The notes below the pieces were generated by a model. That model was not told where the DNA came from, did no database searches, and worked only from the letters and a program-made list of their open reading frames with translations. Shown here piece after piece: positions 32,617-36,844 of a DNA stretch of 49,733 bases. Source of the stretch: Clostridiales bacterium (GTDB taxonomy: Bacteria > Bacillota > Clostridia > Peptostreptococcales > Acidaminobacteraceae). The stretch lies in assembly GCA_021107455.1 (NCBI GenBank), contig JAIOSU010000198.1:1-49733 (forward strand), given 5' to 3'. Positions within the stretch are counted from its first letter, which is position 1. Each line of letters begins with the position of its first letter. The position numbers were made by a program, and so were the translations under genes.

Positions 32617-33150
32617 TTAATCCACGAAAGCAAATACGTGGTCGATATTTCTGAAATAATCCCCATAATTGAGGCCATATCCTACAATGAACTTGTCAGG
32701 AATCTCAAAACCTACATAATCAGGTTCATACACGACTTTCCTTCTGGAAGGCTTATCGAGCAACACACATGCTTTAACGCTCTTAGGATTTCTTTTTGAT
32801 AGAATCTCTATCACGCCAGTCATGGTAAGTGCAGAATCAGTGATGTCATCCACTATGAGCACATCAAACTCGGTAAGATCCACGTTGATGTCTTGAACCA
32901 CTTTGACTGTACCCGTGGTATGTTCATCATGTCCATAACTTGAAGTGGTCATAAACTCTATACGAACTGGCAAATCAATTTTTCTGACCAAATCCGCTGT
33001 AAATATAAAACTGCCTTTAAGCAGTGAAATCACAAGTAGGTTTTTATCTTTATAGGCTTCTGTAATCGTTTTTCCGAGTGAAACCACACGTTCTTCAATT
33101 GCTTCTCTTGATAATAAGACTTCTCTGCGCTTATTCTCAATACTCATCAC
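32617..33150 (-). CDS. hpt: Hypoxanthine phosphoribosyltransferase
   Basis: A 177-residue type I phosphoribosyltransferase for purine salvage, joining hypoxanthine (or guanine) to PRPP. The PRPP loop is VLIVDDITDSALTM, with Ala where many homologues have Gly; I recall this variant as common in a clostridial subgroup. LLDKPSRRK and VGYGLNYGDYFRN complete the family pattern. It has AGGAGGT-type sequence upstream (TGGAGGTATGTG), its own promoter and a terminator. Confidence 0.95.
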   Translation of the reverse strand: MMSIENKRREVLLSREAIEERVVSLGKTITEAYKDKNLLVISLLKGSFIFTADLVRKIDLPVRIEFMTTSSYGHDEHTTGTVKVVQDINVDLTEFDVLIVDDITDSALTMTGVIEILSKRNPKSVKACVLLDKPSRRKVVYEPDYVGFEIPDKFIVGYGLNYGDYFRNIDHVFAFVD

Positions 33151-33332: not shown

Positions 33333-34508
33333 ATGGAACATGTCACAAAACAAAAAAAAGCGATTTCGATTGAGACATTTGTTTTTTTAATTGTTTCTGG
33401 GGTTGTCTTCGGATATCTTGCGACTGAAATGGGAGTCGATAAGATGTTCAACACCATAATGAACACAGCGCATTACCTTTTGCTCGATGTTGTGTTTTTT
33501 ATTATGGCAGTTGCTGTATTGGCAGGTGCATTTGCTGCACTTTTGTCAGAATTTGGTGTCGTAGCATTGATCAACAAAATCATCTCACCAGTAATGAAAC
33601 CTCTTTACGGATTACCAGGTGCCGCTTCCCTTGGAATGCTCACCACATATTTGTCGGACAATCCAGCTATTATTGCTCTTGCCCATGACAAAGGTTTCAA
33701 AAAGTATTTTCATGATTATCAACTCCCTACATTATGCAATCTTGGAACTGCATTTGGTATGGGACTTATACTAACTACATTCATGATTGGACTTGGAGAT
33801 GGTGTAGAGTATATGATTCCTGTTCTCATCGGCAATATCGGTGCGATCATCGGAAGTATAGTCAGTGTCCGCATTATGATGGTATACTCCAAAAAGTATT
33901 ATAATGTTGGCAAAGTAGAAATGGAAATCATCCCTGCAAATGACAACCTCAACAAACTCCGAGAAGTTCGAGTAGGTAATGTATTTGAACGCGTCCTCGA
34001 CGCTACACTTGAAGGTGGTAAATCAGGTGTTGAACTTGGACTTGCGATTATCCCTGGTGTTGTCATCATCTGTACACTTGTTATGATCTTTACTTTCGGA
34101 CCTGCAGAAACCATTGATGGTGTTGCCATCTATACAGGAGCCAAGAAAGAAGGTGTGGCGCTATTCCCTAAAATCGGTGAGTTGTTCAGCCCGATTCTTA
34201 AACCTTTGTTCGGTTTTGAAAGCGCTGAAGCCATCGCATTTCCTATCACTGCACTTGGATCTGTAGGCGCGGCTATGGGACTTGTCAAAGATTTTATAAC
34301 CAGAGGACTTGTTGGACCAAGTGACATTGCTGTATTTACTGCCATGGGTATGTGCTGGAGCGGTTATCTCAGCACTCACGTCGGCATGATGGATGCTCTT
34401 GGTGTCAGAAAACTTTCTTCAAAAGCAATTTTTTCCCATACCATAGGAGGCATCATGGCTGGCATATCAGCTCATTACCTCTACTTGTTGTCAACTATGA
34501 TTCTATAA
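33333..34508 (+). CDS. CD0519/CD1768-type nucleoside-recognition (Gate) membrane protein
   Basis: A 391-residue polytopic protein (about nine to ten helices) with two similar halves, as in nucleoside-recognition Gate-domain proteins. Readable features: GAFAALLSEFGVVALINKIISPVMKPLYGLPG and LTTYLSDNPAIIALAHDKG in the first half and LGLAIIPGVVIICTLVMIFTFGP in the second. The substrate is unknown. The start is ATG at 33333 with AGGGGG seven bases upstream; the track TTG start is part of the leader. It is monocistronic, divergent from hpt, and closed by a bidirectional terminator. Confidence 0.82.
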   Translation: MEHVTKQKKAISIETFVFLIVSGVVFGYLATEMGVDKMFNTIMNTAHYLLLDVVFFIMAVAVLAGAFAALLSEFGVVALINKIISPVMKPLYGLPGAASLGMLTTYLSDNPAIIALAHDKGFKKYFHDYQLPTLCNLGTAFGMGLILTTFMIGLGDGVEYMIPVLIGNIGAIIGSIVSVRIMMVYSKKYYNVGKVEMEIIPANDNLNKLREVRVGNVFERVLDATLEGGKSGVELGLAIIPGVVIICTLVMIFTFGPAETIDGVAIYTGAKKEGVALFPKIGELFSPILKPLFGFESAEAIAFPITALGSVGAAMGLVKDFITRGLVGPSDIAVFTAMGMCWSGYLSTHVGMMDALGVRKLSSKAIFSHTIGGIMAGISAHYLYLLSTMIL

Positions 34509-34513
34509 TGATA

Positions 34514-34559
34514 AAGAGCATCCAGGCGACCCCACAAGGTCACGTGAATGCTCTTTTTA
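34514..34559. terminator. Bidirectional terminator between convergent genes
   Basis: AAAGAGCAT pairs with ATGCTCTTT across an interrupted stem closed by GACC / GGTC. T runs occur on both strands, serving the plus gene and the minus DUF2798 gene. Confidence 0.82.
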
Positions 34560-34793
34560 TATTTGCTCTTTTGCAATCATGAGCCCCATGATTTTTTCCA
34601 CCAATGGTACAAAAAGCATTGATGACGGTACTGCTATGATATATCCCATGATAAAGGATTGACCCCAGGCTGAAAGAAAATATCGGTCCATACCTTGATT
34701 GATCAAAGTCATGAAAAATGATATGGAGAGTGAAATGCCTAGAGAAGCCAAGGCATTGAATAGTATAAATTGTGTCACTTTGTTTAAACGCAT
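34557..34793 (-). CDS. DUF2798 family small membrane protein
   Basis: A 78-residue protein with two membrane helices. The pattern SISFFMTLINQG ... FLSAWGQSFIMGYIIAVPSSMLFVPLVEKI matches DUF2798, a family of unknown function. It is a single gene with its own promoter 35-65 bases upstream; the ribosome binding site (GCGGGG) is weak. Confidence 0.8.
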   Translation of the reverse strand: MRLNKVTQFILFNALASLGISLSISFFMTLINQGMDRYFLSAWGQSFIMGYIIAVPSSMLFVPLVEKIMGLMIAKEQI

Positions 34794-34829: not shown

Positions 34830-34857
34830 ATTATACCCAATCTATGGAGTATTTCAA
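34830..34857 (-). promoter_or_regulatory. Promoter of DUF2798 gene
   Basis: TTGAAA (34852-34857) and TATAAT (34830-34835), 16 bases apart on the minus strand. Confidence 0.62.
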
Positions 34858-34881
34858 TTTTTTTGTTAAATACTTACAAAT

Positions 34882-35013
34882 TCACTTTTTATTTTGTAAG
34901 ATGAATTTTATTTCCTTTAAGAGAATTATGATTTTATTCAGCGCAAATTGTATGGAGACGAGCACCAAGAAAAAAAACGCTATTCCAACCCATTCCAGTC
35001 TTAAATCACCCAT
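34882..35013 (-). CDS. 43-residue single-pass membrane protein (not in ORF track)
   Basis: This ORF is below the track's size limit. It starts MGDLRLEWVGIAFFFL, continues with a hydrophobic helix (about residues 9-25) and ends in a basic amphipathic tail (NKIIILLKEIKFILQNKK). The ATG at 35013 has AGGAG at five to six bases, and the ORF begins 17 bases after the deacetylase stop on the same strand, so the two are probably co-transcribed. I do not recognise the family. The single helix and basic tail suggest a small inner-membrane protein, perhaps a partner of the deacetylase or of other envelope proteins. Confidence 0.68.
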   Translation of the reverse strand: MGDLRLEWVGIAFFFLVLVSIQFALNKIIILLKEIKFILQNKK

Positions 35014-35030
35014 ATAAGCTCCTATCTTAA

Positions 35031-36155
35031 TCAGTAGTTCTCCAGATCGAATTCAAACACTTCTTTGTCTGATATAGCATCCACATTGATTCGATTCAAA
35101 TGCAACGAAGGAACTGAAATCCTATTCTCAAGTCCATCGCTGACAAATCTTCGCTGCGGATTTTTTTCATATTCATCAAGCCACCAAGACAATTGCATAT
35201 CGCCATCACCACTTTGAACCCGGTGAACACCACTTTTGTTGAAGTCCACATGATAAACAGGTACATATGGCTTCCAGCCGACTCTGAGTACCGTGTGGTT
35301 ACTGTATTCAAACCCTTCAAATTGACCTTTGAGCACGTAGGGTCTCAGATCATCATTTTGTGGGCTTTTTCCATAAGGAAGAGCCAATGACTCCATCACT
35401 AATTTTTCGTTCAGATTGTTGAAATGTGTCGTATTTTTGCCAAGTGCTCTTTGAATGCCCTCTGCATCCAGTTTAGTCAGATCTTCGTGATTGTAGGCAT
35501 GATTGCCAATTTCATAACCATGATCGAACAAGTATTGTAATTTTTGCTCGATATACTTGGGCTGACCAAAAGGATTGCCGGCATTGAGATAAAAAATAGC
35601 CGCTTTTCCAAATGTTGGATTATCAATATAAAATGCGTCCAATATTCCAACGACGCAATCTGGATCGATTTCCAGACCGTCCTCAGTCTCCAAATAATTA
35701 AAATTCGATCTGTGTCCATCGTCGAATGTCAGTACCACAGGTGTTCTCCCAGCCTCAATGTCAAAATTGCCGTCGATGTAATCCTTCATGCTGACTGCGC
35801 TGAACCCCATATCAAACAATCTCTGCAAATCGCTCTTAAATGACTCTATGGTCCTGGAATAAGTAGTGTTTGTTTCACTGAGGTTGTGATACATGACAAT
35901 CATGATTTCACCGGATTCGTCAGGTCTTACCATTTCATAATCCAGCTCTTCCACTACTTCAATCGCATCAGGCTCCTCGCTATCGTCAGAATCTACAACT
36001 GGTTCTTCAATAACAGGTTCCTCAATAACAGGTTGTTCAACAATCGGCTCTGGGATGATATCATCATCTGTCTTGACCAACACTTCGTTTCCACAACCAA
36101 CTAAAAAGACCACTAGGATCCACGTCCACCATCCTCTTACCAACAGTTTTTTCAT
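35031..36155 (-). CDS. Polysaccharide deacetylase (NodB-type) lipoprotein
   Basis: A 374-residue exported lipoprotein: signal peptide with lipobox LVGC (Cys about residue 21), an acidic Pro/Glu linker with repeats (PVIEEPVIEEPVV), then a NodB domain with VVLTFDDGHRSN (catalytic Asp and metal Asp) and NHAYNHEDL (metal His pair). It should deacetylate a cell-wall or surface polysaccharide, outside the membrane. I use the ATG at 36155 (MKKLLVRGWW), with AGGGGG four bases upstream; the track start is seven codons earlier. It is followed by the 43-residue protein and is divergent from the DUF4364/protease pair. Confidence 0.92.
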   Translation of the reverse strand: MKKLLVRGWWTWILVVFLVGCGNEVLVKTDDDIIPEPIVEQPVIEEPVIEEPVVDSDDSEEPDAIEVVEELDYEMVRPDESGEIMIVMYHNLSETNTTYSRTIESFKSDLQRLFDMGFSAVSMKDYIDGNFDIEAGRTPVVLTFDDGHRSNFNYLETEDGLEIDPDCVVGILDAFYIDNPTFGKAAIFYLNAGNPFGQPKYIEQKLQYLFDHGYEIGNHAYNHEDLTKLDAEGIQRALGKNTTHFNNLNEKLVMESLALPYGKSPQNDDLRPYVLKGQFEGFEYSNHTVLRVGWKPYVPVYHVDFNKSGVHRVQSGDGDMQLSWWLDEYEKNPQRRFVSDGLENRISVPSLHLNRINVDAISDKEVFEFDLENY

Positions 36156-36187: not shown

Positions 36188-36217
36188 ATTATAACTTGAA
36201 ATGTACCTATAGTCCAA
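36188..36217 (-). promoter_or_regulatory. Promoter of deacetylase gene
   Basis: TTGGAC (36212-36217) and TATAAT (36188-36193), spaced 18 bases on the minus strand. Confidence 0.6.
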
Positions 36218-36231
36218 GTTAAGATTTCATT

Positions 36232-36260
36232 TTGAGTTTAATATGATTTTATGCTATACT
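36232..36260 (+). promoter_or_regulatory. Promoter of DUF4364 - protease pair
   Basis: TTGAGT (36232-36237) and TATACT (36255-36260), spaced 17 bases. It lies back to back with the deacetylase promoter, 14 bases apart. Confidence 0.6.
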
Positions 36261-36307
36261 ATTGCTTGAACATCTGTTCAATCCAACGCGCAAGGAGGGA
36301 TTTATTT

Positions 36308-36844
36308 GTGAAAATAAGTCCAGATCAACAACTGAAATCCAAAATAAAATTATTGTATATTATCAATCAATTTTCCGTACCACTCACAAACCAACAATTG
36401 ACTGATTTTGTACTTGAACATGATATTATGAATTTTTTCGATTTGCAACAATATCTGACGGATCTTGTTGCTACTTCTATGCTCGAATATTCAAGCAGCG
36501 AGGGAGAAAATTATTATATCATCACAGAAAGTGGAAAAAACACACTGGAACTTTTTTCCGATAGGGTTTCACAATCACTCCGCAGGACCATCAACGACAT
36601 TGTGGATTCGAAGAAAAAATCTTTTGTGATCAAAACTAATATTTCGGCTGATTATACCAAAGAGGATGACAATGATTATATGGTTCATCTTTCTGTAAAG
36701 GAAGGCATCTATACATTGATGGACATCAAAGTCAATGTGGTGTCCAACAAACATGCCAAACAAATTTGTGAAAACTGGGAGAAAAAAGCCCAGTATCTTT
36801 ATGGTGATATCTTAAATAAGCTGGTTGATGATTCAGATTTGTAG
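36308..36844 (+). CDS. DUF4364 family protein
   Basis: A 178-residue protein. The N-terminal 80 residues look like a winged helix (SKIKLLYIINQFSVPLTNQQLTDFVLEHDIMNFFDLQQYLTDL), with ITESGKNTLELF; the remainder matches DUF4364, a clostridial family of unknown function that may be a DNA-binding regulator. The start is GTG at 36308, with AAGGAGG nine bases upstream; the track ORF begins 19 codons too early. Eight bases separate it from the protease gene. Confidence 0.85.
   Translation: MKISPDQQLKSKIKLLYIINQFSVPLTNQQLTDFVLEHDIMNFFDLQQYLTDLVATSMLEYSSSEGENYYIITESGKNTLELFSDRVSQSLRRTINDIVDSKKKSFVIKTNISADYTKEDDNDYMVHLSVKEGIYTLMDIKVNVVSNKHAKQICENWEKKAQYLYGDILNKLVDDSDL

Follow-up and report, generated by a model that had tools for sequence, protein, structure and literature searches.

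Phospholamban has about 50 residues and one membrane helix, along which Leu and Ile alternate at heptad a/d spacing. A study cited in PMC3078132 deals with the leucine/isoleucine zipper of this animal SERCA regulator. In E. coli, AcrZ and CydX are small single-helix modulators of membrane complexes (PMC7267776, PMC6005532), and among designed proteins the CC-Type2 coiled coils carry Leu at a and Ile at d (PDB 7bas; PMC6175849). The gene described here, termed S, encodes a 43-residue protein and was analysed within a 49,733-nt stretch of clostridial DNA, hereafter the window. Like AcrZ and CydX, S has fewer than about 50 residues and one hydrophobic helix, belongs to a class often missed in annotation and is kept by selection. 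Unlike them, it comes from a different phylum, shows no detected sequence relation to either, is co-encoded with neither a respiratory oxidase nor an RND pump, and has a partner that is only presumed. With phospholamban it shares the size of about 50 residues, the single membrane helix and a putative a/d spacing of Leu and Ile; however, no homology was found, phospholamban has its zipper in the membrane where that of S would extend into the predicted cytoplasm, and the oligomer of S is a putative one. The CC-Type2 coils resemble S in having Leu at a, Ile at d and Thr/Ser at g (position 24), but they are synthetic and soluble, and a profile search of the PDB with S returned one designed coiled coil (7bas) at a non-significant E of 0.61, which makes the likeness an analogy of pattern alone. 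The features of the locus are as follows.

32617..33150, minus strand: hpt, hypoxanthine phosphoribosyltransferase (NCBIfam TIGR01203), the commonest same-strand downstream gene of S in relatives
33333..34508, plus strand: CD0519/CD1768-family membrane protein, between S and hpt (NCBIfam NF049989, E 4.9e-174)
34557..34793, minus strand: DUF2798 membrane protein, downstream of S (Pfam PF11391, E 1.4e-15)
34830..34857, minus strand: promoter-like TTGAAA-16-TATAAT between S and the DUF2798 gene (11/12; conserved in two close relatives)
34882..35013, minus strand: S, gene for a 43-aa single-helix membrane protein (conserved ATG-to-TGA frame with third-position bias)
34936..34959, minus strand: codons 19-26 of S (VSIQFALN), its most conserved stretch, predicted to lie at the inner membrane face
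35019..35023, minus strand: ribosome binding site AGGAG of S, with a 5-nt spacer before the ATG (SD-like in 59/60 named homologues)
35031..36155, minus strand: NodB-type polysaccharide deacetylase lipoprotein (lipobox LVGC), upstream neighbour of S (Pfam PF01522, E 2.1e-10; ATG at 36155 or 36176)
36188..36216, minus strand: promoter-like TGGACT-17-TATAAT upstream of NodB (10/12 matches, consensus match alone)
36251..36844, plus strand: DUF4364 protein, divergent (Pfam PF14277, E 1.6e-48), adjoining S upstream in several NodB-less relatives

The S frame starts with an ATG at 35013 and stops with a TGA at 34884-34882 on the minus strand (translation MGDLRLEWVGIAFFFLVLVSIQFALNKIIILLKEIKFILQNKK). 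It lies 17 nt (35030-35014) behind the stop codon of NodB (TGA, 35033-35031), which is on the same strand, and its product has a single hydrophobic helix and a basic C-terminus. The original prediction had described just such an ORF, with an AGGAG site, one hydrophobic helix and a basic tail, 17 nt behind the deacetylase stop and in the same direction, and the description holds. The window has a single AGGAG-ATG frame of 38-80 codons that includes a hydrophobic 19-mer, and 60 first-order Markov shuffles gave no such frame (mean 0.0); the S frame itself occurs once in the window's genome. In the two closest relatives (L051 and L052) the frame is intact and the homologues are 91-95% identical, the nucleotide differences falling in the third codon position in 10/12 and 20/24 cases; dN is 0.02-0.05 against a dS of about 0.5 and higher, a value poorly estimated near saturation. 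The frame is free of stops in seven relatives, while each other frame has stops in some of them, and a start codon is present in 60/60 named members of the family. Codon conservation, proposed earlier as one check on this gene, is evident from the third-position bias, the low dN and the frame kept in relatives. Judged from these alignments, S is a genuine gene that selection maintains, and its ribosome binding site is a good one. An antisense ORF at 34844-35017 (plus strand, 57 aa) was considered and rejected as a real gene, having stops in more distant relatives; the S frame is without stops in 7/7.

Searched with the single S sequence, many of 99 related genomes gave matches (41-95% identity), and a profile search (E<=1e-3) found a member in 76 of the 99, one per genome except for one weak extra match. 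The 60 named loci include Fusibacter, Alkaliphilus, Sedimentibacter, Tindallia, Anaerovorax, Paraclostridium, Intestinibacter, Clostridioides MAGs and Parvimonas. Since the scan for named loci had demanded the pattern [LM][VI]SIQ[YF][SAT]LN, conservation was counted on 69 sequences from the genome searches. At the class level a family match (E<=0.01) was found in 29 of 391 genomes; among the 15 class matches outside the window's order, five lie below 1e-8 and the others are weak (4e-4 or worse). At the phylum level (E<=1e-4) matches occur in two of 300 genomes, one of them the window's own, and by these counts the family is rare outside the order. Scans of the window protein and 19 members against Pfam, NCBIfam and PHROGs gave nothing significant and nothing that reached a curated cut-off, the best member E-values (0.0057-0.045) being spread over unrelated families. 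A literature search for an earlier description of the family turned up no matching paper, and the Pro-SMP finder paper makes no mention of Clostridia. The earlier claim of a small membrane protein gene is borne out, with a protein that the curated families do not contain. We define the family by the core [ST]-[ILMF]-Q-x-x-[LIF]-[NL] at the inner end of one hydrophobic helix, a Leu/Ile heptad, a basic C-terminus and a length of about 39-64 aa, and the window protein falls within this SIQxxLN single-helix family. By the profile searches, this small membrane protein family is restricted to one lineage, Peptostreptococcales/Tissierellales-type Clostridia, and had not been filed before. The usual family libraries lack this strongly conserved gene, which is carried by many environmental anaerobes and by bacteria of the gut and mouth (Clostridioides MAGs, Intestinibacter, Parvimonas) in the same group.

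The family core reads L18-x-S20-I21-Q22-x-x-L25-N26-K/R-I28-x-x-x-L32-x-E34-I35-x-x-x-L39. Among the 69 members, L18 is kept in 65, S20 in 65, I21 in 58, Q22 in 68, L25 in 63, N26 in 63, I28 in 59, L32 in 63, I35 in 61 and L39 in 49. Position 24 is Thr or Ser in 61/69. Leu replaces Asn at position 26 (YTLLQIL) in a sub-branch made up of G008, G018, G026, G030, G035 and G038 (loci L153, L157, L160, L195, L196 and L197). A heptad fits the sequence with L18, L25, L32 and L39 at a and I21, I28 and I35 at d. In 38 non-redundant sequences the a/d columns are more conserved than the other columns of 18-40 (Mann-Whitney p 0.015, for a register picked after viewing the data), and a permutation test of the periodicity was not significant (p 0.15 raw, 0.06 detrended). 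An AlphaFold2 model of S is one continuous helix from residue 3 to 42 with a mean pLDDT of 92.8. The mean net charge is +3.0 at the C-terminus and -0.35 at the N-terminus, the C-terminus being the more positive end in 67/69 members; by the positive-inside rule, we therefore predict an N-out/C-in topology. Residues 23-39 show amphipathic hydrophobicity with a peak at about 104-106 degrees per residue, and the cytoplasmic helix could instead lie flat on the membrane.

In the window, NodB and S are probably co-transcribed, because they lie on the same strand and a scan of the gap found neither a promoter-like nor a terminator-like site between them; TGGACT-17-TATAAT is a possible promoter of both. 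With NodB scored as present at E<=1e-20, 52 of the 99 genomes have both genes, 24 have S without NodB, 5 have NodB without S and 18 have neither, which makes 57 genomes with NodB and 76 with S. The co-occurrence is above chance (odds ratio 7.8, Fisher p 1e-4, phylogeny ignored), so some link with NodB may exist. The frame is encoded in 52 of the 57 NodB genomes, so that the lack of conservation by which the original prediction would have been refuted was not seen. In 30 of the 76 S genomes, from several families, the gene immediately upstream of S on its strand is NodB; an automated rule counted 29, and G005, where the match overlaps by 4 nt, makes up the total. Complete single-contig genomes are among the 24 that carry S without a NodB match. 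Within one genus, G029 bears NodB, whereas in G011, G037 and G040 S lies between the DUF4364 and CD0519-type genes and NodB was not found. Third-position bias and low dN hold in genome pairs both with and without NodB. Two species of one genus (G004 and G024; loci L012 and L016) keep NodB and hpt and have no S, and a search for a hidden S gene in this genus found none; the site between NodB and hpt holds instead a LysE-like frame on the opposite strand, a name given by eye. For G012, G014 and G017, the remaining genomes with NodB alone, the absence of S is not informative, because these genomes are incomplete or stop close to the site. As far as these genomes tell, S and NodB can each be retained without the other.

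Neighbours were named from Pfam and NCBIfam, with the CdsB-like and Dap cluster names given by eye. Clustering of the neighbours places S in a variable block with valS and folC upstream and hpt downstream, and going by gene order this valS/folC...hpt block is a more stable context of S than NodB. Directly before S stands NodB, an SSB-family gene, DUF4364 (divergent) or another gene; directly after it stands hpt, a PfkB-family kinase, or a sigma-54 regulator beside a CdsB-like gene. On the same strand, hpt follows within 12 kb in 60 of the 76 genomes and within 300 nt in 21, and the order valS-S-hpt also occurs in Parvimonas loci. Two hpt paralogues are present in the window's genome (32617-33150, minus strand, and G000:C37:6843-7346) and in most relatives. 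In 27 of 60 clustered genome loci, the gene that diverges from S or NodB on the upstream side encodes DUF4364, an uncharacterised, winged-helix-like protein, a very stable arrangement.

We favour the reading, at a probability of roughly 55%, that S is a membrane helix that associates with itself and, independently of NodB, binds or modulates a larger membrane complex, because the polar residues of its inner part are near-invariant and the putative Leu/Ile heptad extends on into the predicted cytoplasm. Inserted N-out/C-in, S would form an uninterrupted helix that crosses the membrane and then runs about 15 residues into the cytoplasm, and such helices would self-associate through the a and d residues of the heptad. 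The polar patch S20-Q22-N26 at the inner membrane face would make specific contacts, either helix to helix or to a larger membrane complex, which S would stabilise or tune; that these Gln and Asn residues, in or at the membrane, are kept throughout the order implies a specific partner. The NodB-S operon of the window would then be a local arrangement and not the basis of S function. A bolder proposal, which we hold to be doubtful, is that S forms a defined oligomer throughout the order, with a membrane-to-cytoplasm Leu/Ile zipper and an inner-face ring of Gln/Asn, and serves relatives of Clostridioides, Alkaliphilus, Fusibacter and Parvimonas as a new subunit or regulator, or as a small channel.

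The original prediction read S as an accessory subunit of the deacetylase, and its position in the window, 17 nt behind NodB with nothing promoter-like between, together with NodB directly upstream in 30/76 genomes and the significant co-occurrence, is what a co-translated subunit or anchor bound in the membrane to the lipoprotein would predict. Such a subunit should occur with NodB and be lost with it. S does not follow this pattern: it is kept in the 24/76 genomes without a NodB match at E<=1e-20, under purifying selection that looks similar to that seen with NodB, and the genus of G004 and G024 has NodB and hpt without it. In addition, the charge of S would put its conserved part at the inner face and in the cytoplasm, whereas the deacetylase domain lies outside the membrane. 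Because S is kept where the NodB gene is missing, it is probably not a deacetylase subunit; the subunit reading is weakened to the point that we find it quite unlikely, and the neighbourhood behind NodB is a case in which an operon alone suggests a function that the wider comparison does not support. For the other suggestion of the original prediction, an envelope regulator, the analysis found evidence neither for nor against. The more stable context could point instead to a partner within the valS/folC-hpt block; S could, for example, tether Hpt (purine salvage) or another of the block's enzymes to the membrane, or regulate it. The same-strand hpt of most S genomes and the valS-S-hpt order of Parvimonas agree with such a role, but in most genomes other genes, including opposite-strand ones, separate S from hpt, hpt is nearly universal (97/99) and S is not, and synteny may be inertia. 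Hpt is a soluble enzyme that is not known to have a membrane subunit; a partnership with the block thus appears rather unlikely.

Two further readings dispense with a protein complex. The amphipathic residues 23-39 would suit a monomeric peptide that acts on the bilayer or its curvature, with its C-terminal helix on the membrane surface and no zipper. A lipid-binding helix, however, would need neither strongly conserved Q22, S20 and N26 in or next to the membrane segment nor a strict alternation of Leu and Ile, and we consider this reading unlikely. Many type I toxins are small proteins with a single hydrophobic helix and a basic tail, and S fits them in all three respects; yet it is a single-copy gene at a syntenic chromosomal site, retained order-wide, with a strong SD site and highly conserved polar residues, so a toxin of a type I toxin-antitoxin system or another membrane-damaging peptide is highly improbable. 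The self-associating, complex-binding helix remains our preferred account of S.

Downstream of S, the DUF2798 gene has a strong promoter-like site of its own. Between the convergent CD0519-type and DUF2798 genes, an inverted repeat GAGCAT...ATGCTC with a T run was seen by eye at 34509-34560, and it looks like a terminator shared by the two genes.
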